Part shown: in pieces, positions 7,395 through 24,700 of the stretch | How positions within the stretch are numbered: position 1 is the stretch's first letter | How the letters are laid out: each line of letters starts with the position of its first letter | NCBI RefSeq assembly: GCF_000732535.1 | Contig: NZ_APNK01000004.1 | Coordinates: 1 to 64,000 of the forward strand | DNA length: 64,000 bases | Direction of reading: 5' to 3' | Source of the DNA: Salinisphaera hydrothermalis C41B8 | Lineage (GTDB): Bacteria; Pseudomonadota; Gammaproteobacteria; Nevskiales; Salinisphaeraceae | Notes under the pieces: generated by a model | Database searches by the model: none | What the model saw: only the letters and a program-made list of their open reading frames with translations | Told to the model about the DNA's origin: nothing | Translations under genes and position numbers: made by a program

Positions 7395-9335
<1,941 letters not shown>

Positions 9336-9566: not shown

Positions 9567-12245
9567 TTAGTCCTTGCTCGCTTCGGCCAGGATCTCGGCG
9601 ATCTCCGGCTTGCATGAACCGCAATTGGTGCCGGCCTCGACCGCCCGCCCGACGGCCTCGACGCTGTCCAGTCCTTCGGCCTCGATGGCGCGACGGATCG
9701 TCTTGCGGCCGACGCCGAAACAGGAACAGACCAGCGGGCCGGTATCCGCACTGGCATCCGCCGGCCGACCGGCGAGCACGGCCATGCGTTCGGCCTCTTG
9801 CATCGGCTCGCCCGTGAACAGGCCGGCCAGCCAGCTGCGATCGGGCAGCCGCTCGGGCGTGGGTGCGATGAAAACCGCGGCTTCCAACGTGCCGCCGTCG
9901 ATATGGGCCGCCCGATACAAGCCGCTCGCCGGGTCGCTCGCGTCCAGCCAGTCGACGTCGCGGCCCTCAACGCTGAGCCAGCGTCCGACTCGGTCCGTCC
10001 AGTCGCCCGGCCTATCGATGCCGGCGATTTCATAGCGGTTGAAACGCGCGCCCGGTACTCGCGTCCAGTGATCGATGCCGGGCTGTGCTTGCATGCGCAG
10101 CGGCCGCGCGGCGTAGACGAAGCCATACCAGACCGCCTCATACGGCGCGATCGACGCCGGCGTGTGCTTGAATTCCGGTTCGCCGGCAATCGGACAGACG
10201 GCGGGATTCGCCGCAGCGCCCACGCGGGCTGCGGAGGCAAACTGTCGATTCCAGTGGATGGGCGCAAACAGGCTGCCCTGGCGCTGTCGGTCGGTCACCA
10301 CCGCGCGCATCGTGACCTGGCCCCAGTCGGTGGTGACGGTGGCCAGTCGCCCGTCGACAATCGCGTGGGTCTGGGCGTCCTCGGGATGAATCTCCACGAA
10401 CGGCTCGGCGATGTGAGCGGCCAGCCGCTCGGACTTGGCGGTCCGTGTCATCGTATGCCAGTGATCGCGCACCCGGCCGGTGTTGAGCGCCAGCGGCCGC
10501 GACGTGCTCGGCCGATTCGCCGGGCCGCGCGGCGCTACGGGCACCAAATGGGCACGCCCGTCGGCATGCGGATATGCGTCGTCGGTGAACAGCCGATCCG
10601 CGTCCGCCCTTGCCGGCATGGCGCCGGCCGCCCGCATCGCCTCGGGCGACGACAACGGCCAGCGGATGGGCGACAGCGTCTCGTATTCGGCGTCGGTGAT
10701 GCTGGCCAGCGCGCCGAGATCGAGCACGCGCTCGCCGTTGTTTTCAAATGCCGTCAGGGCCGCGTGTTCACGAAAGATATCGGCCGCCGATTCATAGGCG
10801 AAATCGTCGCCGAAGCCCATGCGTCGGGCGACCTCGCTAATGATCCGCCAGTCGGCGCGGGCCTCGCCCGGCAGCGGCAGAAAAGCGCGCTGGCGCGAGA
10901 TCATGCGTTCGGAATTGGTCACCGTGCCGGATTTCTCGGCCCAGGCCGCGGCCGGCAACAGTACGTCGGCACAATCGACGGTGTCGGTATGACGCATCAC
11001 GTCCGACACCACCACCAGCGGGCAGGCGGCCAGCGCCCGCCGGGCGCGATCCGCATCCGGCAGGCTCACGACCGGATTGGTCGCCATGATCCAGATCGCC
11101 TTGATGCGCCCGGCCTCGATCGCCTCGAACAGCTCGACCGCCTTCAATCCCGGTTTGCGCGCAATGGTCGGCGAACCCCAGAAGCGCTGCACGGTATCGG
11201 CTCGATCGAAGCCCATGTGCGCGGCCAGCGTGCTGGCCAGCCCGCCGACCTCACGCCCGCCCATGGCGTTCGGCTGCCCGGTGATCGAGAACGGGCAGGC
11301 GCCGGGCTTGCCGATGCGATCGGTCAGCAGATGGCAGTTGATGATGGCGTTGACCTTGTCGGTACCGGCCGATGACTGATTCACGCCCTGCGAGAACACG
11401 GTCACCGCGCGCTCGGTGGCCGCGAACCAAGTGAAGAACTTGGCCAGATCGTCGATGTCGACACCGACGGCTTGTGCGACCGAGGCCGCATCGCCCATCC
11501 TCTGGGCTGCCTCGATCGCCGCATCGGCCCCGGGCAGCTCGGAGGTGATGCCCTGCCCGGCAAGATACGCCAGCAAGCCATTGAACAACGCGACATCGCT
11601 GCCAGGCGCGATCGGCAGATGCAGATCGGCGCTGTCGGCCGTCGCGGTACGCCGTGGATCGATCACCACCAGCGTCTTTTTCGGGTCGGGCTCGCGGGCT
11701 GCCATCAGACGCTGATAGACCACCGGATGACACCACGCCAGATTGGAGCCCACCAGCACCACCAGATCGGCGATCTCCAGATCGTCGTAACAGCCGGGCA
11801 CGGCGTCCTCGCCGAACGCCCGCTTGTGGCCGGCCACGGCCGAGGACATGCACAGCCGCGAATTGGTATCGATGTTCGCCGAGCCGATGTAGCCCTTCAT
11901 CAACTTGTTGGCGACGTAGTAATCCTCGGTGAGCAACTGGCCGGAGACATAGAAGGCGACCGCATCCGGGCCGTGCTCGGCAATGATCTCGGCAAAACCA
12001 CCGGCGACCCGGTCGAGCGCACTGTTCCAGTCGGCGCGATGGCCGTCGACGCGCGGATGCAGCAGGCGATCGGCCAGCCCGACCGTATCGGCCAAGGCCG
12101 TGCCCTTCGAACACAGACGGCCACGATTGGACGGATGGCCTTCGTCGCCGGTAACGGCCACCGTGCCGGCATCGTCCACCGAAGCCGCCACGCCGCAGCC
12201 GACGCCGCAATACGGGCACGTGGTACGCGTGGTCTGCCCTGTCAT
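9567..12245 (-). CDS. nasA: Assimilatory nitrate reductase catalytic subunit with C-terminal BFD-like 2Fe-2S domain
   Basis: 892 residues. The N-terminal 4Fe-4S motif is Cys10-x2-Cys13-x3-Cys17-x27-Cys45 (CPYCGVGC and RLCSKG). The Mo-bisMGD domains follow: SRLCMSSAV near the active site with Cys in place of Ser/SeCys, DPRRTATADSADLHLPIAPG, and the C-terminal molydopterin dinucleotide-binding fold. The last 55 residues are a BFD/NirB-like 2Fe-2S domain with CSC and CGSC cysteine pairs. Start set at the ATG that overlaps the stop of the preceding FAD reductase (TGATG); a longer open frame reads into that gene and was rejected. It reduces nitrate to nitrite in the cytoplasm for assimilation, receiving electrons from the upstream flavoprotein. 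Confidence 0.95.
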   Translation of the reverse strand: MTGQTTRTTCPYCGVGCGVAASVDDAGTVAVTGDEGHPSNRGRLCSKGTALADTVGLADRLLHPRVDGHRADWNSALDRVAGGFAEIIAEHGPDAVAFYVSGQLLTEDYYVANKLMKGYIGSANIDTNSRLCMSSAVAGHKRAFGEDAVPGCYDDLEIADLVVLVGSNLAWCHPVVYQRLMAAREPDPKKTLVVIDPRRTATADSADLHLPIAPGSDVALFNGLLAYLAGQGITSELPGADAAIEAAQRMGDAASVAQAVGVDIDDLAKFFTWFAATERAVTVFSQGVNQSSAGTDKVNAIINCHLLTDRIGKPGACPFSITGQPNAMGGREVGGLASTLAAHMGFDRADTVQRFWGSPTIARKPGLKAVELFEAIEAGRIKAIWIMATNPVVSLPDADRARRALAACPLVVVSDVMRHTDTVDCADVLLPAAAWAEKSGTVTNSERMISRQRAFLPLPGEARADWRIISEVARRMGFGDDFAYESAADIFREHAALTAFENNGERVLDLGALASITDAEYETLSPIRWPLSSPEAMRAAGAMPARADADRLFTDDAYPHADGRAHLVPVAPRGPANRPSTSRPLALNTGRVRDHWHTMTRTAKSERLAAHIAEPFVEIHPEDAQTHAIVDGRLATVTTDWGQVTMRAVVTDRQRQGSLFAPIHWNRQFASAARVGAAANPAVCPIAGEPEFKHTPASIAPYEAVWYGFVYAARPLRMQAQPGIDHWTRVPGARFNRYEIAGIDRPGDWTDRVGRWLSVEGRDVDWLDASDPASGLYRAAHIDGGTLEAAVFIAPTPERLPDRSWLAGLFTGEPMQEAERMAVLAGRPADASADTGPLVCSCFGVGRKTIRRAIEAEGLDSVEAVGRAVEAGTNCGSCKPEIAEILAEASKD

Positions 12246-13552
12246 CACGCCGCCTCTCGATTCGGTTCGACATGGTCGTCGGTGTCGACGAAAGCCCGGC
12301 CGAAGATCAACGCATCGCGAAACCACGACACATCCGTGCCGGCCCGCATATGCTTGAAATACCAGGACCCATCGGCCGTGTCGCCGTACAGCACGACGCC
12401 GGCGATACAACCGTCTCGCAGTACAATGCGCTTGTAGACACCACGGCGTATGTCGGAAAAAGTCAGCGTTTCGGTGTGCTCGTCCTCGGCGAAATCGCCG
12501 GCCGAGTACATATCGATACCGGTGACCTTGAGCTGGGTCGCGGTGACCGAGCCGCCGTACTGACTGTGCCCGCGCCAGGCCAGATGATTGGCGCAGACCC
12601 GCGCCTGATCCCACAGCGGCGCCACCAGCCCGTACACTGCCTTGCGATGCTCGACGCACTCACCGACCGCATAAATGCGCGGGTCGAAAGTCTGCATGGT
12701 GTCGTTGACCACAATGCCCTTGTCGCAATGCAGCCCGGCCGATCGGGCCAGCTCGATGTTCGGCCGGATGCCCACGGCCATCACCACCAGATCGACATCC
12801 AGCGTCGACGCGTCATCGTCCTTGAAACGCAGCCCGGCCACGCGTCCCGCCCCGTCGGAGACGATCGCCGCGGTTTCCGCGCCCATACGGAACGACAGGC
12901 CGCGCTGGGCCAGCGAATGCTGCAACAACGCAGCCGCGGTGGCATCGAGCTGGCGCTCCATCAATTGCGACTGGAGATGCACGACGGTCACCTCCATGCC
13001 GCGCCGATGCAGCCCGTACGCCGCTTCCAGACCCAGCAGCCCGCCGCCGATCACGGCCGCTCGGCCGCCGCGGGCACTCGCCTCGACCATGCGCTCGACA
13101 TCGCCGATGGCACGGAAACTGATCACACCGTCCAGATCGTGTCCCGGCACCGGAATTACGAACGCCGTGGAGCCGGTGGCAAGCACGAGCCGGTCGTAGG
13201 GCACTTCCCGGCCGCTGTCCGAGATGACCATGCGCCGACGACGGTCTATGTCGACCACCGATTCGCCGGTATACAAGGCGATACCGTGCTGGGCATACCA
13301 GGCGCGATCGCGACTCTGGATCTCATCGAACGTCTTGTCGCCGGCCAGCACCGGCGACAGCATGATCCGGTTGTAGCTGGCCTGGGGTTCGGCGCCGAAC
13401 ACGGTGACGTTGTAGCGCTCCGGCGCGAGTTCGAGCAGATCCTCGATCACCCGCAGTCCGGCCATACCGTTACCGATGACCACCAGATCCAGCCGCGGTT
13501 GCACCGCGTCGGTCCGATCGGCGTGTCGACGAAGCGTGTGGTAGGCGGGCAT
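12245..13552 (-). CDS. FAD-dependent NADH reductase of nitrate assimilation (NirB N-terminal-like, NasC/NasB type)
   Basis: 435 residues. Pyridine nucleotide-disulfide oxidoreductase fold: first Rossmann motif LVVIGNGMAGLRVIEDLL near residue 22, second nucleotide-binding motif AAVIGGGLLGLEAAYGL near 150, ATG-type motif LVLATGST near 110, and IYAVGECVEHR near 285. This is the part of NirB that accepts electrons from NADH; the siroheme domains of NirB are missing. In Klebsiella the equivalent NasC passes NADH electrons to the nitrate reductase; naming differs between species, so I give no symbol. It ends one base into nasA and begins three bases after the 50-residue membrane protein, so these three are translated from one message. 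Start at MPAYHT; an upstream start overlaps the small gene. Confidence 0.88.
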   Translation of the reverse strand: MPAYHTLRRHADRTDAVQPRLDLVVIGNGMAGLRVIEDLLELAPERYNVTVFGAEPQASYNRIMLSPVLAGDKTFDEIQSRDRAWYAQHGIALYTGESVVDIDRRRRMVISDSGREVPYDRLVLATGSTAFVIPVPGHDLDGVISFRAIGDVERMVEASARGGRAAVIGGGLLGLEAAYGLHRRGMEVTVVHLQSQLMERQLDATAAALLQHSLAQRGLSFRMGAETAAIVSDGAGRVAGLRFKDDDASTLDVDLVVMAVGIRPNIELARSAGLHCDKGIVVNDTMQTFDPRIYAVGECVEHRKAVYGLVAPLWDQARVCANHLAWRGHSQYGGSVTATQLKVTGIDMYSAGDFAEDEHTETLTFSDIRRGVYKRIVLRDGCIAGVVLYGDTADGSWYFKHMRAGTDVSWFRDALIFGRAFVDTDDHVEPNREAA

Positions 13553-13957: not shown

Positions 13958-15262
13958 TCACTCCGAAACCGGCTTGAACTCGCCGATGCCGTGCTCGGCC
14001 GGGCTGCGCTCGTAGCGCGCGGCCCAGAAGAAAAACAGCACGAAGGGAATGAACAGGAATATGGCGGTATAGGCATAGCCCATATGGATGTTGGCCCCGC
14101 CGGAGAAGATGAGCGGATAGACGATGCCACCGGCGCAGGACACGCCGCCGATGAAGCCGGCCGCCACGCCGGGGCGTTCCGGGAACAGCAGCGGCACGAG
14201 CGCGAATGTGCCGCCGGTACCGAAGCTGATGAACAGCCCCAGAGCGACAAGCGCGACGATCGAGCCCGGCAGGAAACCGGCGAGGCCGGCGAGCGTGAGC
14301 GCGAGCATCGCGACCACGATCAGGATCAGCGCAATACCGAGCCAGTGCAGACGCGGCGCATAGGGCAGGGTCTTGGCCACGATCGGCAGCGGCGTCCAGT
14401 TCTTGCGCTGGAAAGTATCGGACATGAAGCCCGAGAACGGCCGGAACAGCGAGGCCATGAACGACTGCACCGCGGCGAACGTGCCGGCCGCGACCTGAAC
14501 GCCCGCGACCGAGGTAAAGCCGAGCGCGGCGATCTGGGCATGGAAGCCCTTGTCGAAATAGCCCGGCAGCCAGGAGTTCATCGCGATCTCCAGGCCGAAC
14601 GACATGGCATAAGCCAGCATCAGCGCAATGGCGATATACCGGCTCCAGACGAACACGGCCCCGCGCCAGTCGCCGGCCTCTTTCGCCGTACCGGCGCTGG
14701 TGGCCGCGTCGCGGGCGGCTTCGCCGCGTATCAGATACCAGGCCGCAAGCCCGAGCGCGACCACGCCGAGCAGAATGAACGCGGTCTGGTAGTCGACGCC
14801 AAAGATCCGCGGCAGTAGCAGCGCACCCACGCCGGCCCCCACATTGCCAGTACCGGCATACAGGCCTTCGGCGGTGCCGATCTCGTCGGCATCGAACCAC
14901 TGGGCTACGTGCTGGATGCCCACCACGAACGAGATGCCGGCGATAGCCACGATCACGCGCTCGATGAACAGCTCCGTGTAATCGGTGGTGAAGCCCGAGG
15001 CGATCGAAACCGCGCCGCAGACCGCGAGAATCACGGCGAAGGTCCGCGGGGCCCCGAAGCGATCGGCAGCCCAGCCGGCGATGATGCGCCCGATCGGTGC
15101 CATCCACAGCGCCGAGCTGGCGAGCAGTCCGAGCGCGGCGATCGACAAGCCGTAATGGTCCGCGATGCTTGGCGAGAACGCCGCCGTCGAGAACCACATC
15201 AGGAAACACCAGAAAAAGCCGACCGTGGCGATGATCAGCTGTTCGACCTTGTGTGTTGTCAC
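13958..15262 (-). CDS. NarK/NasA-type MFS nitrate transporter
   Basis: 434 residues with about 12 membrane segments. The MFS motif between TM2 and TM3 appears as GWAADRFGAPR (about 64-74); the nitrate signature regions are GNVGAGVGALLLP (about 147) and FISFGTGGTFALVPLLFPERPGVAAGFIGG (Gly-rich, about 345-375; shown here as separate blocks FISFGTGG and AAGFIGG). Arg in TM2 region and conserved Gly patches fit nitrate/nitrite porters. The start is GTG at 15262, overlapping the nasS stop (GTGA), with GGAGG seven bases upstream inside nasS. It imports nitrate for the downstream reductases. Confidence 0.9.
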   Translation of the reverse strand: MTTHKVEQLIIATVGFFWCFLMWFSTAAFSPSIADHYGLSIAALGLLASSALWMAPIGRIIAGWAADRFGAPRTFAVILAVCGAVSIASGFTTDYTELFIERVIVAIAGISFVVGIQHVAQWFDADEIGTAEGLYAGTGNVGAGVGALLLPRIFGVDYQTAFILLGVVALGLAAWYLIRGEAARDAATSAGTAKEAGDWRGAVFVWSRYIAIALMLAYAMSFGLEIAMNSWLPGYFDKGFHAQIAALGFTSVAGVQVAAGTFAAVQSFMASLFRPFSGFMSDTFQRKNWTPLPIVAKTLPYAPRLHWLGIALILIVVAMLALTLAGLAGFLPGSIVALVALGLFISFGTGGTFALVPLLFPERPGVAAGFIGGVSCAGGIVYPLIFSGGANIHMGYAYTAIFLFIPFVLFFFWAARYERSPAEHGIGEFKPVSE

Positions 15263-16542
15263 TGCAAACCTCCTTCCAGAATATGCGCGCGCGATGGCCC
15301 GGCGCCGTGTACCCTCGGGGCGGCGACCATCGGGTCGAACGTCCCGCCGTCAAAGAATCGATCCGGGCCGAGGGTGATATCAGCGCCGAGCGTGACGTCC
15401 GACCAGGCCTGGCCATGTCGGCCTTCGGTCTTGTAGTCAACAACCGGAGCGGGACGCTCGAGCTCGGCGCAAACCTCGCGATAGAGCTCGGGGCGATAGA
15501 CCGCCGCGGCGACCGCGTGGACGTCCGTGGCCGGATGCAGCTGACCCCAGCGCTGCATCTGACGCAGAAACCAGACCGCGTGCGAGCGCCATGGAAAATT
15601 GCTCTGGTGGCGGGCAAAAACGAGATGATCGGGATGCCACTCGATCGCGGCCTCTCGCTGGCGTCGAATATGCCCGGCGTAGACCGCTGCCAGCTGCGCG
15701 GCATCGCAATCGACAAACCCCGCGCCGGCCACGTGCGGCGCGATGCGTTCGCGATGCTTGGGCTCATCGAGCCAGATACAGGCTTCGAGCAGCGCGCACA
15801 GCACGGCGCGATGCGTATTGGGATAGACTTCCGCCCAGTCGCGGGCCACGCCGAATACTTTCTCCGGCGCGTTATTCCAGAGTTCGTGGCCGGTAATCGC
15901 CACATGGCCGATGCCCTCGGCGACCGCGGCCTCGCTCCAGGGCGCGCCCACGCAGTAGCCGGCGATACGGCCCGCACGCAGATTGGCCAGCATGCGCGCC
16001 GGCGGCACCACGATCAGACGGACATCGCGATCGGGATCCAAGCCGCCCGAGGCGAGCCAGTAACGCAACTGATAGTGATGCGACGACACGGGATGAACCA
16101 TGGCGAACGTCATCGGCGCGAGGCCGGCGTCACGATCGGCCGCCACGACCCGGGCCAGCGTCTCGGCGCTGGCCGGCGCGCTCCCGGGCCGGCCAACATC
16201 GAGCTCGGCCATGCGCTGCGACAGCCCCGCATCGAGCGTGATCGAGTTGCCGTTCGCGCCCAGCGCAAGCCCGGTAAGCATCGGCACCGGCGCTGTGCCG
16301 TGACCGAGCGTGGCCGCCAGCGGCAGGCCCGCCAGCATCTGCGCCCCGTCCAGCCGGCCGATCGCCACGTTATCGCGAATGGCGGCCCAGGACGCCTGGC
16401 GTTGGAGCCGGACATCCAGCCCCTGCTTGGCAAACAGTCCGAGCTCGACCGCCGCCACCAGCGGCGCGCAGTCGGCCAGCGCGACGAAGCCGAGGGTCAG
16501 CCGGGTCTTTTCCAGCGCGCGAGCGCTCGTTATATGCCGCAT
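15259..16542 (-). CDS. nasS: NasS, cytoplasmic nitrate sensor (NrtA/CmpA-like)
   Basis: 427 residues of the NrtA/CmpA periplasmic-binding fold but without any signal peptide (it begins MRHITSARALEKTRLTLGFV), which separates the sensor NasS from true transport receptors. Conserved blocks include LGFVALADCAPLVAAVELGLF near residue 17 (first 20 residues only quoted in part), WAAIRDNVAIGRLDGAQML, VHPVSSHHYQLRYWL and GYCVGAPWSE. Known role: in the absence of nitrate NasS holds NasT inactive; nitrate binding releases NasT to act on the leader RNA. nasT is the next gene upstream, and the predicted NasT target lies in the gap between them, directly before nasS. Only a weak ribosome-binding site precedes the ATG. 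Confidence 0.88.
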   Translation of the reverse strand: MRHITSARALEKTRLTLGFVALADCAPLVAAVELGLFAKQGLDVRLQRQASWAAIRDNVAIGRLDGAQMLAGLPLAATLGHGTAPVPMLTGLALGANGNSITLDAGLSQRMAELDVGRPGSAPASAETLARVVAADRDAGLAPMTFAMVHPVSSHHYQLRYWLASGGLDPDRDVRLIVVPPARMLANLRAGRIAGYCVGAPWSEAAVAEGIGHVAITGHELWNNAPEKVFGVARDWAEVYPNTHRAVLCALLEACIWLDEPKHRERIAPHVAGAGFVDCDAAQLAAVYAGHIRRQREAAIEWHPDHLVFARHQSNFPWRSHAVWFLRQMQRWGQLHPATDVHAVAAAVYRPELYREVCAELERPAPVVDYKTEGRHGQAWSDVTLGADITLGPDRFFDGGTFDPMVAAPRVHGAGPSRAHILEGGLQ

Positions 16543-16572: not shown

Positions 16573-16621
16573 AAAAAAAGCCCGACAGCACTCGCGCGGT
16601 GGTTGCGCGGTGCCGCCGGAC
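16573..16621 (-). terminator. Intrinsic attenuator terminator in the nas leader
   Basis: On the minus strand the hairpin spans 16621 to 16580. Its outer stem pairs GTCCGGCGGCAC with GTGCTGTCGGGC (12 pairs, three of them G-U), the inner stem pairs CGCGC with GCGCG (one bulged A), loop AACCACC, followed at once by seven U (16579-16573). It ends 30 bases before the nasS start, so transcription from the upstream sigma-54 promoter would stop here unless antiterminated. Its 5' strand begins with the GTCC that closes hairpin P2. Confidence 0.85.
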
Positions 16622-16651
16622 TTCGGTGTCCCTGAGCGAATTGTCGTTCAG
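16618..16651 (-). promoter_or_regulatory. ANTAR (NasT) antiterminator target: tandem hairpins P1 and P2
   Basis: P1 (16651-16632) is CUGAACG/CGCUCAG with one A-C mismatch around hexaloop ACAAUU. P2 (16631-16618) is GGAC/GUCC around hexaloop ACCGAA, with A at position 1 and G at position 4 as in the described ANTAR consensus (two adjacent hairpins with six-base loops). P1 loop keeps A1 but not G4. P2 shares GUCC with the terminator stem, so formation of P2 stabilised by NasT would break the terminator. This is the arrangement known for NasT/NasR leaders. Confidence 0.8.
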
Positions 16652-16711
16652 CCCCGGCTCGATGTTTCGATGGCCCCCGTTGACCGCATCGAACCGTGAC
16701 GGAGATTAACC

Positions 16712-16727
16712 AGCAGAAACCGTGCCA
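16712..16727 (-). promoter_or_regulatory. Sigma-54 (RpoN) promoter for the nas operon
   Basis: The minus strand reads TGGCACGGTTTCTGCT, which matches the consensus TGGCAC-N5-TTGC(A/T) except for one base, with the essential GG and GC exactly 10 bases apart. Transcription would begin near 16701, about 50 bases before hairpin P1, giving a leader of about 160 bases. Confidence 0.8.
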
Positions 16728-16813
16728 AATGGCTTTCCAATCGATTTTTCAAGCGCAATCAGAGGATTGGCTAATCGTTCGAATATCACCGCAGCCACCA
16801 GGACGAGCGTCAT

Positions 16814-16830
16814 GCACTCCGGCTGTGCAT
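16814..16830. promoter_or_regulatory. NtrC-type enhancer site upstream of the nas sigma-54 promoter
   Basis: TGCACTCCGGCTGTGCA is a 17-bp dyad with TGCAC and GTGCA ends and the N7 core spacing of NtrC sites. It lies about 95 bases upstream of the sigma-54 promoter, a normal distance for an activator that works by looping, in the gap after nasT. Confidence 0.7.
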
Positions 16831-16874: not shown

Positions 16875-17441
16875 TCAATCGACGGCCCGCTGCATGATCT
16901 GGCGCGCAATCTCGACCATAGGCTGGGCTTGATCCATGGACACCCGCCGCATCGCGCGATAGGCGTCCTGCTCGCTCAGCGATTCGTGCTCCATCAACAG
17001 GCATTTGGCGCGATGAATGACCTGGCGATCGGCCAGCGTCTCGCGGGCGGCGGTGAGTTCGGCGCGCAGGTTCTGCACCTGCTGGAACTGGCGCACGGCC
17101 ACATCCACCAGCGAGCGCACCAGCGCCGGCGACAGCCCTTCCATGACATAGGCCGCAATCCCGGCATCCGATGCCTCGGCCATCAGTCGCCGGTCGTCCT
17201 GCGAGGACAGCATGAGCAAGGGCTTGGGATAAGAGCGACCCAGCGTCGCGACGTCGTCGAGCACGTCGCGCGAGGGCGAATCGGCGCCGACGATGATGGC
17301 ATCCGGCGCCAGACGCTCGACGGCGGCATACAGATCGTCCTGGTCGCTGACGACGGCGGCCACGTCGAACCCTGCGTCCTCGATGACGGCGCGCAGGGTC
17401 GACAGGCGGGCGGAATGGCGATCGACGAGAAGCACACGCAT
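16875..17441 (-). CDS. nasT: NasT, ANTAR-domain RNA-binding antiterminator
   Basis: 188 residues from the ATG giving MRVLLVDRHS; an upstream start would add 15 residues outside the family alignment. Receiver-like domain residues 1-115 (VLLVD, DAIIVGADSPS as the phosphoacceptor region, LMLSS), then a coiled linker (RQFQQVQNLRAEL) and a C-terminal ANTAR domain (about 128-185) with RQVIHRAKCLLMEHESLSEQ and DAYRAMRRVSMD. It binds two-hairpin RNA and prevents termination when released by NasS. The predicted target lies 220 bases downstream. It is not within the sigma-54 operon itself, because that promoter lies after its stop codon, so it is probably expressed independently. Confidence 0.92.
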   Translation of the reverse strand: MRVLLVDRHSARLSTLRAVIEDAGFDVAAVVSDQDDLYAAVERLAPDAIIVGADSPSRDVLDDVATLGRSYPKPLLMLSSQDDRRLMAEASDAGIAAYVMEGLSPALVRSLVDVAVRQFQQVQNLRAELTAARETLADRQVIHRAKCLLMEHESLSEQDAYRAMRRVSMDQAQPMVEIARQIMQRAVD

Positions 17442-17601
17442 ACGGGCATGCCGGCTGAAGACATCGACTCCAACCTTGCAATGCACGTGCCGTATCGGCG
17501 CGACAAGACGCCCGGCCGGCTGGCGCTCCCCTGGCGAAACGCACTAACGTGTGCGGCGTCGATGGGGCCAGCTGCGGCGCCCCGATAACTCGGAGTACTG
17601 C

Positions 17602-19578
17602 ATGAGTGAATTTCGTCTGGGCGTGGATGTGGGCGGCACGTTCACCGATCTGGTGGCGATCGGCGGCGGCCGCGTCATCACCGCCAAGGTGCCCTCCACG
17701 CCGGCCGATCAATCGAAAGGGGTGGTCGATGCGATCGAGGCCAGCGGCCTCGACGCCGACGCCATCAGCGCCCTGGCCCACGGCATGACCGTGGCCACCA
17801 ATGCCCTGCTGGAACGCGCCGGCGCGAAAATCGCGCTGATCACCACCGAAGGCTTTCGCGACATCCTCGAGATCGGCCGCCAGAACCGCCCGGCCCTGTA
17901 CGACCTCACGCAGCGCCCGCCGGAGCCGCTGGTCGCACGCGAACATCGCTTCACCGTGCGCGAGCGCACCGGCCGCGACGGCGTGATTACGCCGCTGGAC
18001 GAGGCCAGCGTCGATGTCGCGATCGAGGCGATCCGTGCGGCCGGCGATATCGAGGCCGTCGCCATCTGTCTGTTGTTCTCGTTCGAATACCCCGAGCACG
18101 AGATCGCGGTCGCCGAGCGCGTCGCCGCTGCCCTGCCCGATCTGCATATCTCGCGCTCGTCGGCGGTGCTGCCGGAATTCCGCGAATACGAACGCTTTGC
18201 CACCACCACCGCGAACGCCTATCTCTCGCCGCGGCTGAATCGTTATCTCGACAATCTAGCCCGGCATCTGGAATCCGCCGGCCTGCCCGAGCCGACGGTC
18301 ATGCAATCCTCCGGCGGCGTCATCGATATCGCGAGCGCGGCAGCCAACGCGGCGAAATGCGTGTTGTCCGGCCCGGCCGGCGGCGTGGTCGGCGCGGCCT
18401 GGCTGGGCCAGCTGTCCGGCGAGGCCGACATGCTCACCTTCGACATGGGCGGCACCAGCACGGACGTCGCCCCGATCGCGAACGGCGAAGCGCCGACCAC
18501 CACCGACAGCATCGTGGCCGGCGTGCCGATCAAGCTGCCGATGGTGAACGTGCATACCGTCAGCGCCGGCGGCGGCTCGATCGCCTGGGCCGATGCCGGC
18601 GGCGCGCTGCGCGTCGGACCGGCATCGGCTGGCGCCGAGCCGGGGCCGGCGGCCTATGATCTGGGCGGCGAGCGCGCGACCGTCACCGACGCCAACGTTT
18701 TCATGGGCCATATCGCCAACGGCACCGAACTCGGCGGGCGCGTGGTCATCTCGCGCGAACGCGCTGCCGAAGCGCTCGAACACCTGGGCAGCGAACTGTC
18801 GCTCGACGCGGAAGCCACCGCTCGCGGCATCATCGATGTCGCCAACACCGAAATGGCCAACGCCCTGCGCGTGATCAGCGTCGCCCGCGGCGTCGACCCG
18901 CGCGACAACGCACTCATGGCCTACGGCGGCGCCGGGCCGCTGCATGCCTGTGCGCTCGCCGAGCAGCTCGGCATGACCAAAATCCTGGTGCCGCGGGCCT
19001 CGGGCGTGCTGAGCGCGCTCGGCCTGGCGGTTTCCGATGTACGCCGCGATCTGACCCGGCCGGTGCTCAGCGGGCTCGACGCGGCCAATTCGGCTACGGC
19101 CGAAGCGCTGTACGACGATATGATCGCCGAGGCGTGCGCTGAGCTGGATCAGCCCGACATCGAGCGCACCGCCGATCTGCGCTATCGCGGGCAGTCCTTC
19201 GAGCTGGGTGTCGCCGCCGACGACTGGGACGCGCTGGCCGAGCGCTTCCACGACGCCCACGAAACCCGCTACGGCTATGCCATGCGCGACGACCCGATCG
19301 AACTGGTCAACCTGCGTGTGACCGCGCGCGTGGCGGTCGACAAACCCGAACTGTCCGAGGCCGCGCCGGAACACGAACCCGAGGCCGACACGCGTGCGGT
19401 GCTGGTCGACGGCGACTGGCGCGACATCCCGGTCTACGCGCGCGAAGAGCTCGGCCGCGGCAGCCGTGTCGTCGGCCCCGCGATCGTGGAATTCGCCGAA
19501 ACCACCTGCATGGTACGGCCGAACTGGCATGGCGAAATCGACGCCGCCGGCACCCTGATCCTGGAGCACAGCGCATGA
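17602..19578 (+). CDS. Hydantoinase/oxoprolinase family subunit A (ATP-dependent)
   Basis: 658 residues. ASKHA-type N-terminus FRLGVDVGGTFTDLV (ATP-binding, residues 4-18), HGMTVATNALLER near 62, GPAGGVVGA near 258, DMGGTSTDVAP near 285 and AYGGAGPLHACALAEQLG near 440 are all diagnostic of HyuA/5-oxoprolinase. It opens ring amides such as hydantoins, N-methylhydantoin or 5-oxoproline with ATP. Start at MSEFRLG with GGAG upstream. Subunit B overlaps by four bases. No carbamoylase lies nearby, so the ring substrate cannot be inferred from context; adjacent convergent genes import betaine-like compounds, which may hint at creatinine/N-methylhydantoin or simply be chance. Confidence 0.92.
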   Translation: MSEFRLGVDVGGTFTDLVAIGGGRVITAKVPSTPADQSKGVVDAIEASGLDADAISALAHGMTVATNALLERAGAKIALITTEGFRDILEIGRQNRPALYDLTQRPPEPLVAREHRFTVRERTGRDGVITPLDEASVDVAIEAIRAAGDIEAVAICLLFSFEYPEHEIAVAERVAAALPDLHISRSSAVLPEFREYERFATTTANAYLSPRLNRYLDNLARHLESAGLPEPTVMQSSGGVIDIASAAANAAKCVLSGPAGGVVGAAWLGQLSGEADMLTFDMGGTSTDVAPIANGEAPTTTDSIVAGVPIKLPMVNVHTVSAGGGSIAWADAGGALRVGPASAGAEPGPAAYDLGGERATVTDANVFMGHIANGTELGGRVVISRERAAEALEHLGSELSLDAEATARGIIDVANTEMANALRVISVARGVDPRDNALMAYGGAGPLHACALAEQLGMTKILVPRASGVLSALGLAVSDVRRDLTRPVLSGLDAANSATAEALYDDMIAEACAELDQPDIERTADLRYRGQSFELGVAADDWDALAERFHDAHETRYGYAMRDDPIELVNLRVTARVAVDKPELSEAAPEHEPEADTRAVLVDGDWRDIPVYAREELGRGSRVVGPAIVEFAETTCMVRPNWHGEIDAAGTLILEHSA

Positions 19579-21128
19579 GCGATTCCCAGCCGACTCTCGA
19601 TGCCATCACCCTGTCGATCATGGCGCGCGCCCTGGCCGGCATCGCCGAGGAAATGGGCGCGGTGCTCATCCGCGGGGCCTACTCGTCCAACATCAAGGAA
19701 CGCCGCGATTGCTCGGCCGCGCTCACCGACGCCAACGGCCGGATGATCTGCCAGGCCGAGCACATCCCGGTACATCTCGGCGCGATGCAGGATTCAGTGC
19801 TGGCCGTGATCGAGAAGAACCCGGTACCCGGCGACGTGTTCATGCTCAACGACCCGTTCGCGGGCGGCAATCACCTGCCGGACATCACGCTGGTCTCGCC
19901 GATCACGTTGGGCGACGACGATGAGATCCTCGCCTATGCCGTCACCCGTGCGCATCATTCGGATATCGGCGGCATGCGCCCCGGCTCCATGCCGGCCGAC
20001 TCGCGCGAGATTTATCAGGAAGGGCTGGTGATCCCACCCGTGCGGCTGGTGGCGGCCGGCCTCGACAATGACGAGATCATGTCGATCGTGCTCGCCAACG
20101 TCCGCACGCCGGATGTCCGGCGCGGCGATCTACGCGCCCAGCTCGCGGCCAATCATCGGGCCGGCGTGCGCCTGCGCGAACTGGCCGAGCAGCGCGGCGA
20201 ACCAACGCTGCGCGCGGCCTTTACGGACGTGCTGGCCTATACCGAACGTTGGACGCGCCACGTGATCGCCGAGCTGCCGGACGGCGTCTATCGCGCCGAG
20301 TCGGAAATCGAAGGCGACGGCGTGACCCTGGACGACATCCCGATCCGGGTGGCGGTGACGGTCGAGGGCGATGCGCTGCATGTCGACTTCACCGGCACCG
20401 CCGACGCCGTGGCCGGCAACGTCAACTGCCCACTCACCGTCACCCGAGCGGCCTGTTATTTCGCCCTGCGCACGCTTCTACCCGCCGACGTGCCGGGTAA
20501 TGCCGGCGCCTACGCGCCAGTCTCGCTGCATGCGCCGGAAGGCTCGTTCGTCAACGCCCGGCGCCCGTCGGCCGTGGTCGCCGGCAACGTCGAAACCAGC
20601 CAGCGCCTGACCGATACCGTCCTGCTCGCGCTCGGCCAGGCCACCGAGGTGCCCGCACAGGGTCAGGGCACGATGAACAACCTCATTATCGGCGGCGCCG
20701 ACTGGAGCTACTACGAAACGCTGGGTGGCGGTCAGGGTGCCTCGCGCGCCGGCCCCGGCGCCTCCGGCCGCCACGTCGGCATGACCAACACGCTCAACAC
20801 GCCGGTCGAAGCCTTCGAGCTGGAATACCCGATGCGCGTGGCGCGCTACGAACTGGCTTACGACACCGGCGGCGCCGGCCAGCACCGTGGCGGCGACGGC
20901 TTCTATCGCGATATCGAAGTCCTCGCCCCGGCCACGCTGTCGCTGATCAGCGATCGCCGCCGCCATGGCCCAGCCGGCCGTAACGGCGGCGGTAACGGCC
21001 AGCCCGGCGAGAATCGTCTCAACGACGAATTGCTGCCCGCGAAGGCCAGCCGACAGCTCGAGCCTGGCGATGTCATCTCCGTTCGTACGCCGGGCGGTGG
21101 CGGTTGGGGCGAAGCCGACAAGCGTTAA
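19575..21128 (+). CDS. Hydantoinase/oxoprolinase family subunit B
   Basis: 517 residues, beginning at the ATGA overlap with subunit A. Conserved HyuB blocks are visible: [20 protein letters not shown] near residue 8, [12 protein letters not shown] near 37, HLGAMQDSV near 66, [18 protein letters not shown] near 85, [15 protein letters not shown] near 120 and the C-terminal [13 protein letters not shown] with [11 protein letters not shown]. HyuA and HyuB form the ATP-dependent ring-opening enzyme. A GC-rich hairpin follows immediately and the next gene is convergent, so this is a two-gene transcription unit. Confidence 0.92.
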
Positions 21129-21171: not shown

Positions 21172-22056
21172 CTACTTGCCGAGGTGGTGCTGCTTGACCC
21201 AGTCCTCGGCGACCGCTTCCGGGTCGTCGTGCTTGACGCTCACGCGCTGGTTCATGCGCTGGAGGTCTTCGGTCGTAAGCTGGGCGGAGATGGCGTCCAG
21301 CGCCTTGCGGATCTTCGGCGTCAGAATCGCCTTGCGCGCGACCGGCAGAATGTTCTGCGCCGGCACGAGGTTCTTGTTGTCCTTGAGCAGCACCCAGCCG
21401 CGATCGGGAATCACGCCCTGGGTGGTAAACATGCGCGCCGCATCGATCGCACCGCTCGCCAGCGCGCTCTGGGTGAGCGGGCCGCCGGCGTCGAGCGAGC
21501 GGAAGTTCTTGAACTGCACGCCGTAGACCTGTTTCAGCCCGGGTACGCCGACATAGCGCGTCTTGGTTTCCGGCGGGCCGCCAAGGGTCAGTTTGCCGGC
21601 CACCGGCTTGAGATCGGCGATGGTCTTGAGATGGTATTTCTTGGCCGTCGCGGCGGTGACCACGATGCCGTCCTTGTCCTGTGCCGAGGAGGCCTTGAGC
21701 GCGACCAGCCCTTTCGGCAATTTCTGACGCAGTTCCTTGAGCACGGCCTGTTGCGTATGGGCCTTGGATTTGCCGTTGGTCAGAAAGCCGAGCAAGGCGC
21801 CGGAATATTCCGGCAGCACGTCCAGTTCCCCGGCTTTCAGTGCCGGAAACACGACTTCGCGTGAGCCGAGATTCAGGCGTTTCTTCACGTCGACGCCGCG
21901 TGCTTCCAGCACGTCGGCGTAAATGTTGGCGAGGATCAGCTGCTCGGTGAAGTTGGTCGAGCCGACCACGACCGGCTTGCCGTCGGCGGCCAGGGCCGGC
22001 GCGGCGATCGCACCCGCCAGTACGGCGGCGGCAACGAGAAGAGAAAATTTGCGCAT
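21172..22056 (-). CDS. OpuC/OsmF-type osmoprotectant ABC substrate-binding protein
   Basis: 294 residues with a signal peptide (residues 1-23, PALA-A). Family features: VVVGSTNFTEQLILANIYADVLE (first 20 residues GSTNFTEQLILANIYADVLE, about 31-50), FPALKAGELDVLPEYSGALL near 70 and a C-terminal LTTEDLQRMNQRV. It binds choline, glycine betaine or related compounds in the periplasm. It is the last gene of a four-gene unit (ATPase-permease-permease-receptor) reading on the minus strand. It lacks the double-Cys lipid-anchor site of Gram-positive OpuCC. In E. coli the OsmF/YehZ system has low betaine affinity, so the true substrate may be another osmolyte. Confidence 0.9.
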   Translation of the reverse strand: MRKFSLLVAAAVLAGAIAAPALAADGKPVVVGSTNFTEQLILANIYADVLEARGVDVKKRLNLGSREVVFPALKAGELDVLPEYSGALLGFLTNGKSKAHTQQAVLKELRQKLPKGLVALKASSAQDKDGIVVTAATAKKYHLKTIADLKPVAGKLTLGGPPETKTRYVGVPGLKQVYGVQFKNFRSLDAGGPLTQSALASGAIDAARMFTTQGVIPDRGWVLLKDNKNLVPAQNILPVARKAILTPKIRKALDAISAQLTTEDLQRMNQRVSVKHDDPEAVAEDWVKQHHLGK

Positions 22057-22133
22057 GCGTTGTTATCCGTTCGTCCGATTGAACTCGATGAAATGATGAT
22101 GACAGAAACTGCCCGGACGGTCTGTCCGGGGCG

Positions 22134-22886
22134 TCAGCGGGCGAGCCCGGGGGATTGCACCAGTTTCTGGACGCCGGCCAGCCCGATCTCGGTGCACACC
22201 GCCAGGATCGCGACCACGATGGCGCCGCCGACCACCTGCGCCAGCTGCTGCTGGGCCAGGCCGTCGATCAGATAGCGCCCCAGCCCGCCGAGACCGACGT
22301 AGGCGGCGAGCGTGGCCGTCGACATCACCTGCACGGCCGACGTCCGCACGCCGGCCATGATGAGCGGCAGCGCGATGGGCAACTCCACCTGCCAGAGCCG
22401 TTGCCAGCGCGTGAGCCCGAGCGCCGCCGCCGACTGACGCACGGCCGGATCGACCGACTGCATGCCGACATAGCTGTTGGTGACCATCGGCGGGATGGCA
22501 AGGGCCACCAGCGCGACCAGCACCGGCACCACGCCAAAACCCACCAGCAAAAACATGAGGATGATCAGCCCGAACGACGGGATCGCGCGGCCGATATTGG
22601 CGATATTGATCGCGAGCAGCCCGCCGCGCCCGTAGTGGCCGAGCCCGATGCCGACCGGCAACGCGATGGCAGCCGCGATCGCGGTCGACACCGCCACGTA
22701 ATAGATATGCTGGCCGATGCGATGCGGCAGACCGTCCGGGCCTTGCCAATGCATCGGATCGACGAACCAGTGCCAGACCTGGGCCACGGTATTCGCGCCG
22801 TCGGATTCCAGGCCGAGCGCATAGGCCGAGCCGGCCGCCAGCCACCAGAGCGCCACGAACAGCGCAACACGCGTCATGACGCTCAT
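22134..22886 (-). CDS. OpuC-type ABC transporter permease (second permease)
   Basis: 250 residues with about six membrane segments. The ABC permease EAA loop is seen as QSAAALGLTRWQRLWQVELP near residue 150, and the AAYVGLGGLGRYLIDGL segment near 195 is typical of OpuCB/OpuCD/YehW. The start is at ATG 22886, overlapping the stop of the first permease by four bases (ATGA). A much longer frame upstream is an artefact of reading the first permease in another frame. It forms a channel with the other permease. Confidence 0.88.
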   Translation of the reverse strand: MSVMTRVALFVALWWLAAGSAYALGLESDGANTVAQVWHWFVDPMHWQGPDGLPHRIGQHIYYVAVSTAIAAAIALPVGIGLGHYGRGGLLAINIANIGRAIPSFGLIILMFLLVGFGVVPVLVALVALAIPPMVTNSYVGMQSVDPAVRQSAAALGLTRWQRLWQVELPIALPLIMAGVRTSAVQVMSTATLAAYVGLGGLGRYLIDGLAQQQLAQVVGGAIVVAILAVCTEIGLAGVQKLVQSPGLAR

Positions 22887-23524
22887 GTCCGCCGCCCCCG
22901 ATTCCACGGGGTGGCCAGCCAGAGGACCCCGGCCAACGACAGATCGACGGCCACCGCGAGCGCGATCGACAACACGAACCCCACCAGCAGCGGCGTGGTG
23001 AAATGCAGGGTGAAACCGGTGATGAACAATCGCCCCAGCCCGCCCTGGCCGATCAGCGCGGTGACCGTAACCAGCCCGATGGTGGTGATCGCCGCGATAC
23101 GCAGCCCGGCCATGATCACCGGCAGCGCAATCGGCAGCTCGACCGTCAGCAATTGACGCGATTTGGAATAACCCAGCGCGCGCGAGGCCTCGCGCACCTC
23201 GAACGGCACGCCGCGCAGCCCTTCCACGATATTGCGGAACAGAATCAGCAACGTGTAGATCGTCAGACCGATCAACGAAGTGGCCATCGACAGCCCGGTG
23301 AACGGAATCAGCAGGATGAACAAGGCCAGCGACGGCACCGTGAACAACACACCGGTGGCCGCCAGCGACGGCCCGTAAAGCCGCGGCCAGCGAATCGCCG
23401 CCAGCGCCAACGGGAAAGCGATCGCGAAACCGAACAGCAGCGCGAATCCGGTCAGCTCCACGTGTTGCAGAAGCTGGGCGAGAATGTCGTCGGCATGCCG
23501 GCCGATCCAGTCCCAGCGAATCAA
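22883..23524 (-). CDS. OpuC-type ABC transporter permease (first permease)
   Basis: 213 residues beginning at TTG 23524 inside the stop of the ATPase gene (TTGA overlap), giving LIRWDWIGRHADDILAQLLQ; no suitable ATG exists. About five membrane segments; permease EAA-type motif is EASRALGYSKSRQLLTVELP near residue 118, followed by TALIGQGGLGRLFITGF. It is a typical OpuCB/YehY-class permease. The short overlap on both sides shows translational coupling along the unit. Confidence 0.85.
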   Translation of the reverse strand: MIRWDWIGRHADDILAQLLQHVELTGFALLFGFAIAFPLALAAIRWPRLYGPSLAATGVLFTVPSLALFILLIPFTGLSMATSLIGLTIYTLLILFRNIVEGLRGVPFEVREASRALGYSKSRQLLTVELPIALPVIMAGLRIAAITTIGLVTVTALIGQGGLGRLFITGFTLHFTTPLLVGFVLSIALAVAVDLSLAGVLWLATPWNRGRRT

Positions 23525-24603
23525 GACAGCGCCCGATGCAGGCTGGACTGGGCCAGCAGGCCGCCAAAACGGCCGTCGGCATCGACACGCGCCACCACGC
23601 CCAGCGGCGAGATCACGAGCGCGCCGAGCGCGGCGCGCAGCGTATCGCCGGCGCCGACCACGGCATCGAAGGATTCCGGCGCGCGCGCCGTATCGGCCGC
23701 GTAGTCGGCGACGCGATGCCAGCCCAGAATCCGGCGCTCGCCGTCGACGACCAGCACCCAGTCGGTAGCGGCCGTATCGGCGGCGGATGTGGCCTCGGCA
23801 GCGGTCGCGCCCGTCGCGATCAGCGGCGCCTCGATCGTGGCCGCGGCGCTCACCGGCAACAGCGACAGTCGCTTCAACTGGGGCTCCGCGCCGAGAAAAT
23901 CGACCACGAAATCGCTCTTGGGCGCGGCCAGCAATTCGTTCGGCGTGGCGAACTGGGCGAGCCGCCCGCCTTCGCCGAACACGGCAATCCGGTCGCCGAG
24001 ACGAATCGCTTCGTCGATGTCGTGAGTGACGAACACAATGGTCTTGCCGAGACGTGCCTGCAGCGCGAGGAACTCGTCCTGCAGGCGCTTGCGCACGATC
24101 GGGTCGACCGCGGCGAACGGCTCGTCCATAAGCATGATCGGCGGATCGGCCGCGAGCGCACGAGCCACGCCCACACGCTGTTGCTGGCCGCCGGACAGCT
24201 GATGCGGATAGCGCTTGGCCATGTCGCGTTCCAGCCCGACCGTCTCGATCAGCTCGTCCACCCGGGCGGCCACGCGTTTTTTGTCCCAACCGAGCAGACG
24301 CGGCACCGTGGCGATGTTGTCGCCGATGGTGCGATGCGGGAACAGGCCGGAGTGCTGCATGACATAGCCGATGCCGCGCCGCAGCTCGGTCACCGGATGC
24401 TGACGGATGTCCACGCCGTCGATGGCGATGGTGCCGGCGCTGGCTTCGTCGAGGCGGTTGATCATGCGCAGCGACGTGGTCTTGCCGCAGCCCGACGGGC
24501 CGACCAGCACGGTCAGCTCGCCCGTCGCCAGAGTCAGGTCAAGCGCATCGACCGCGACCGTGCCATCGGGAAAACGTTTGGTCACCGAGGAGAACTCAAT
24601 CAA
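23521..24603 (-). CDS. OpuC-type ABC transporter ATP-binding protein with C-terminal CBS-like region
   Basis: 360 residues from TTG 24603 (product begins IEFSSVTKRFPDG after the initiator), which matches the usual family N-terminus; a GTG 48 bases upstream is an alternative. Walker A GPSGCGKTT near residue 36, Q-loop MQHSGLFPH, signature LSGGQQQRVGVARAL near 135, Walker B IMLMDEPFAAVD and H-loop FVTHDIDEA are all intact. The C-terminal 120 residues resemble a degraded CBS pair (DWVLVVDGERRILGWH and GVVARVDADGRFGGLL), the region that senses ionic strength in OpuA-type ATPases. It energises the two following permeases. Confidence 0.9.
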   Translation of the reverse strand: MIEFSSVTKRFPDGTVAVDALDLTLATGELTVLVGPSGCGKTTSLRMINRLDEASAGTIAIDGVDIRQHPVTELRRGIGYVMQHSGLFPHRTIGDNIATVPRLLGWDKKRVAARVDELIETVGLERDMAKRYPHQLSGGQQQRVGVARALAADPPIMLMDEPFAAVDPIVRKRLQDEFLALQARLGKTIVFVTHDIDEAIRLGDRIAVFGEGGRLAQFATPNELLAAPKSDFVVDFLGAEPQLKRLSLLPVSAAATIEAPLIATGATAAEATSAADTAATDWVLVVDGERRILGWHRVADYAADTARAPESFDAVVGAGDTLRAALGALVISPLGVVARVDADGRFGGLLAQSSLHRALS

Positions 24604-24700
24604 GACGGGATCCGGTCGACAACAGAGAAAAATAAAACAAAGGAGTCGCACACAAGGCGGCGCCTATCGACATACGGGGCTTCATAGTCGCGGGATGCAA

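Follow-up and report, generated by a model that had tools for sequence, protein, structure and literature searches.

The nas locus and its control elements

The window, i.e. the whole stretch of 64,000 nucleotides analysed here (Salinisphaera hydrothermalis C41B8, contig NZ_APNK01000004.1, positions 1 to 64,000), carries a nitrate assimilation cluster whose features lie on the minus strand unless otherwise indicated. Its regulator gene nasT (16875..17441) encodes a protein of 188 aa from ATG 17441 with Pfam Response_reg and ANTAR domains, and no further ANTAR protein is encoded in the genome; the closest solved relatives of NasT are Rv1626, EutV and NasR, and the alignment suggests that the residues with which EutV contacts RNA, namely R142, K149, E160, Y164 and M172 (PMC8934654), are retained. 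Translation probably begins at ATG 17441 because the start of the longer ORF, GTG 17486, falls inside a likely sigma-54 promoter of nasT (CGGCACGTGCATTGCA, 17477..17492), for which relatives have TGGCACGTTTGTTGC or TGGCATGTTTGTTGC in the corresponding position. The nitrate sensor gene nasS (15259..16542; Pfam NMT1_2, sole genomic match) is the first gene 3' of the leader described below; no signal peptide was seen in NasS as judged by eye, and its nearest named relatives are mostly Salinisphaera records. A REC-ANTAR NasT adjoining a cytoplasmic, NrtA-like NasS within a nitrate assimilation cluster corresponds to the NasS-NasT system. Downstream follow a narK-type nitrate/nitrite MFS transporter, as assigned from sequence (13958..15262), a NirB-like FAD oxidoreductase belonging to the nas operon (12245..13552), an assimilatory nitrate reductase with molybdopterin and Fer2_BFD domains (9567..12251), the starts of these last two being assigned by eye, and a NirA-family nitrite reductase (7395..9335; 807 bits, above the cut-off). 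Besides, an ORF of 50 codons (MAQQAIEKTERDGWYKYGVGVLFAEMG..., ~13710-13555, minus strand) with one apparent membrane span lies between narK and the FAD reductase and has relatives at loci L021 (82%), L185 (58%) and L196 (52%). On the other side, nasT is adjoined by a hydantoinase/oxoprolinase-like gene pair (17551-21128 on the plus strand and 21172-24651 on the minus strand), beyond which lies an ABC transporter of the glycine-betaine/osmoprotectant type, both as read by eye from the translations. No plasmid relatives were found.

From the nasT stop (16875) to the nasS ATG (16542), a dyad, a promoter, a leader of ~129 nt and a terminator succeed one another. The NtrC-type dyad TGCACAGCCGGAGTGCA (16813..16829) is a perfect match to the pattern TGCAC-N7-GTGCA, centred ~120 bp 5' of the predicted start; 4 perfect dyads occur in the 4.28 Mb genome, the other three lying away from classic nitrogen genes except for one that adjoins an ABC transporter gene, and most Salinisphaera relatives have a perfect or near-perfect dyad at a comparable distance. 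The sigma-54 promoter TGGCACGGTTTCTGCT (16712..16727) has one mismatch, with transcription predicted to start at ~16701, and a matching element with the GG and GC kept stands 5' of P2, the antiterminator hairpin, in 10/10 Salinisphaera leaders. A -24/-12 element, an NtrC dyad upstream of it and genes for both NtrC and RpoN in the genome together make up an NtrC/sigma-54 promoter. The dyad, the promoter, P2 and the terminator are thus all present where the original prediction had placed them, and its proposal that an NtrC/sigma-54 start and NasT antitermination at P2 and the terminator act in series is supported, the genome encoding NtrC, RpoN, one NasT and one NasS.

Hairpins of the Salinisphaera leader

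The leader as a whole folds better than its shuffled versions (z -4.3), while an Rfam covariance-model search of the region gave no relevant match. Its antiterminator hairpin P2 (GGAC-ACCGAA-GUCC, 16618..16631) exhibits the A1, the G4 and the C-G closing pair of ANTAR loops and overlaps an intrinsic terminator (16573..16621), made of a hairpin (16621-16580) and a U7 tract (16579-16573) ending 30 bases before nasS, an overlap characteristic of ANTAR-target antiterminator RNAs. The terminator was missed by a simple terminator scanner, probably owing to a bulge, and RNAfold was used instead, giving a fold of -31.5 kcal/mol. As the 3' arm of P2 is the 5' arm of the terminator (shared GUCC), the two structures are mutually exclusive, and enforcing P2 costs ~7 kcal/mol relative to the terminated fold, so that a bound protein is needed. 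This exclusivity, predicted beforehand, was tested on homologous leaders and held: P2 is fully paired in 10/10 Salinisphaera leaders, with a single covarying pair (A-U/G-C/G-U), and 98.6% of the pairs of the terminator basal helix are kept across the ten. Promoter, P2 and terminator are kept together in 10/10 of the nas-bearing Salinisphaera genomes tested. When genomes were searched with a model of the leader, each of the ten having a full nasS match gave exactly one strong hit, and the four without such a match gave none (best E 0.006). One Salinisphaera genome carries only fragments of nasS, without a leader, i.e. a decayed nas cluster (G007:C1:2609381-2609689).

Farther 5', the predicted MFE fold includes an extended hairpin (16651..16700) that bears at its tip P0, a canonical ANTAR hexaloop hairpin (GGUC-AACGGG-GGCC, 16672..16685) with A1, G4 and the C-G closing pair; the original prediction had overlooked it. 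The features of a second ANTAR hexaloop are therefore found in P0, at a linker of 40 nt from P2. Published linkers span 5-12 nt in eut leaders (PMC3369931) and 2-25 nt in actinobacteria (PMC8164766); because 40 nt is outside these ranges, the leader is classed as a variant of ANTAR-target RNA. The extended hairpin is present in 10/10 Salinisphaera leaders (z -0.6 to -3.2) and an A1/G4 hexaloop 5' of P2 in six of them, for 0.5 expected from shuffles. By the criteria used, no such hexaloop is recognisable in the remaining 4/10 (L005, L006 and L008, as well as L007, which has a seven-base loop); P0 is therefore not universal even within the genus, which is a real weakness of its assignment.

Between both hairpins, 11-15 nt before P2, Salinisphaera leaders present the octamer ACAAYNNG, here ACAAUUCG (16637..16644), invariant in 10/10 of them. 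It is found in 0/137 of the other NasT-linked leaders and was consequently rejected as a general NasT element.

Leaders at other NasT-linked loci

For a broader view, P2-type hairpins that overlap a terminator were looked for in 1.35 Mb of sequence from 133 regions surrounding nasS or nasT, and this pattern gave 124 matches vs 13 in the reversed control sequence. Among 87 nonredundant leaders, A1/G4 hexaloops 5' of P2 show two linker peaks, a proximal one at 0-14 nt (22 vs 0.67 in shuffles) and a distal one at 30-49 nt (26 leaders vs 0.92, with a maximum of 6 among 200 shuffles); other bases at loop positions 1 and 4 gave no such peaks in these 87 leaders. Both peaks were repeated in a held-out set of 41 new leaders, obtained from sixty loci fetched later (proximal 19 vs 0.26; distal 13 vs 0.39). 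At positions unused in the selection, the distal loops display a P2-like consensus, with C-G closing in 43/44, A2 in 39/44, G5 in 29/44 and C6 in 29/44. Frequently, a hairpin stands between the distal hexaloop and P2; its loop is an ANTAR hexaloop in leaders of the two-site class and of a different kind in distal-only leaders. Such a long-linker class was not found in the main texts of the ANTAR papers searched, and at the level of sequence evidence this long-spaced layout common to many relatives appears to be new.

Whether this amounts to a widespread second layout among pseudomonadotal NasT leaders is a proposition given even odds: the partner hexaloop would lie 30-49 nt 5' of P2 with a hairpin in between, sometimes with three ANTAR hexaloops in a row, NasT would thus read a long-range or three-site RNA, unlike EutV, and the Salinisphaera octamer ACAAYNNG would occupy the would-be middle site.

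The survey also brought up a second P2 class at loci L043-L085, from Porticoccaceae, Cellvibrionales and related groups, where a single locus often carries two leaders. Its P2 loops (for example AACGAA, AATGAA or AACGAT) have a terminal A or U instead of the GC ending of other P2 loops, and a partner hairpin with A1 and G4 was not recognisable in these leaders. Regarding the gene downstream, a leader 5' of a nasS lacking a signal peptide occurs not only in Salinisphaera but also in Inquilinus and two more lineages. Three rhodobacteral loci (L072, L080 and L090) match nasS but were not counted in this arrangement, the start of the L072 protein being signal-peptide-like, as in NrtA-like proteins.

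Proposed antitermination and known systems

The reading put forward, with a probability of roughly 0.7, is that of an attenuated leader of the nasS-narK-reductase operon, where an NtrC/sigma-54 start would be followed by NasT antitermination via P2 and the distal P0, under feedback from NasS. Upon nitrogen limitation, NtrC-P at 16829-16813 would drive the sigma-54 promoter. As long as nitrate is absent, NasS would hold NasT, the terminator would form and transcripts would end at ~16573; with nitrate, NasS would release NasT, which could then bind both P2 and the P0 hexaloop that caps the 5' hairpin, withholding GUCC from the terminator and letting RNA polymerase read on. The nitrate-dependent dissociation of NasS-NasT was shown biochemically in Paracoccus denitrificans (PMC3795266). 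Since the switch is followed directly by nasS, NasT activity would also lead to the production of its own inhibitor, that is a negative feedback. The participation of P0 is supported by its A1, its G4 and its C-G closing pair, the latter found at the top of the stem by NasR SELEX (PMC7496416), as well as by the excess of distal hexaloops in both the initial and held-out sets. Since EutV activity is destroyed by a longer linker (PMC3369931, PMC8934654), a linker of 40 nt would need folding that brings P0 near P2. Counted against this reading are the single covarying pair of P2 and the sigma-54 pattern, which taken alone is not enriched genome-wide (23 matches vs 23 in the control).

Several alternatives were weighed. 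P2 alone, or P2 with a single-stranded ACAAYNNG, could suffice for NasT, in which case the P0 hexaloop would have arisen by chance on a 5' hairpin with a structural role; this is considered unlikely, as hexaloops of the P0 type exceed chance expectation by far in both position and loop sequence, even though P2 lacks a recognisable partner in 4/10 Salinisphaera leaders and in many Pseudomonadales leaders, and a single P2 is bound by NasR, albeit ~12-fold more weakly (PMC7496416).

More doubtful still is the binding of NasT to P2 and the hairpin next to it under relaxed loop rules and without a linker. The original prediction had taken this weak middle hairpin (CUGAACG-ACAAUU-CGCUCAG, 16632..16651; -4.8 kcal/mol, A-C mismatch) for P1 and had seen in its loop without G4 and its abutting stems a possible extension of the ANTAR range. 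The hairpin can indeed form on paper beside P2, a middle hairpin at this position is common in NasT leaders and the octamer is invariant within Salinisphaera. Against it, the loop lacks G4, it is closed by G-C instead of the C-G of ANTAR loops (PMC7496416), RNAfold predicts an A-U pair across the ACAAUU loop, and the hairpin is not conserved among Salinisphaera relatives, where L002, L005, L006 and L008 fold nothing of the kind. On the grounds of loop, closing pair and non-conservation, it was rejected as an ANTAR P1, for which it was probably mistaken; with a canonical A1/G4 hexaloop 40 nt upstream, neither the absence of a linker nor the extended range is supported.

Comparably improbable is that NasT oligomers touch three sites, namely P0, the middle hairpin and P2. 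NasT is oligomeric once released from NasS (PMC3795266) and distal and proximal hexaloops co-occur in 11/87 leaders for 0.04 expected, but the middle loop in the window is not an ANTAR loop. Finally, an ordinary terminator behind nasT, devoid of antitermination, would account for the strong hairpin and U tract but is most improbable, as it has a sigma-54 promoter of its own upstream and nasS downstream, with a conserved A1/G4 P2 and a P2-plus-terminator pattern far more frequent than in the reversed control.

To come back to antitermination through P2 and P0, searches for ANTAR targets assume two hairpins and a short linker, so that long-linker leaders would be missed or mis-drawn, as happened with the P1 of the original prediction. 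If it is true that NasT joins P0 and P2 across the middle hairpin, the EutV spacing rule would not be general. Besides, a nasS gene placed behind the antiterminator of its partner NasT would provide a simple and measurable negative feedback.

Series control, in which NtrC/sigma-54 initiation is followed by antitermination through NasT or NasR, has been described before in Pseudomonas putida and Klebsiella (PMC12830290, PMC5424462). As proposed here, NtrC-P and sigma-54 start the NalA leader of P. putida, where NasT blocks termination and nitrate acts via NasS (PMC12830290), but that leader precedes nirBD whereas the Salinisphaera leader precedes nasS. The NasR/nasF leader of Klebsiella oxytoca likewise associates Ntr control with a nitrate-responsive ANTAR antitermination, A1/G4 loops and a P2 overlapping the terminator (PMC3369936, PMC5424462); there, however, NasR is a single protein with a NIT domain, while Salinisphaera has NasT plus NasS and a P0-P2 distance of 40 nt. 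The EutV two-hairpin motif has the same A1/G4 hexaloops and P2-terminator overlap (PMC3369931, PMC8934654) but differs in its linker of 5-12 nt, lengthening of which is not tolerated. In P. denitrificans, NasT binds the nasA leader RNA and NtrBC control is shared (PMC5424462, PMC3795266), but nasTS are cotranscribed, with the NtrC site 5' of nasT and the leader after nasS, whereas in Salinisphaera it is the leader that splits nasT from nasS.
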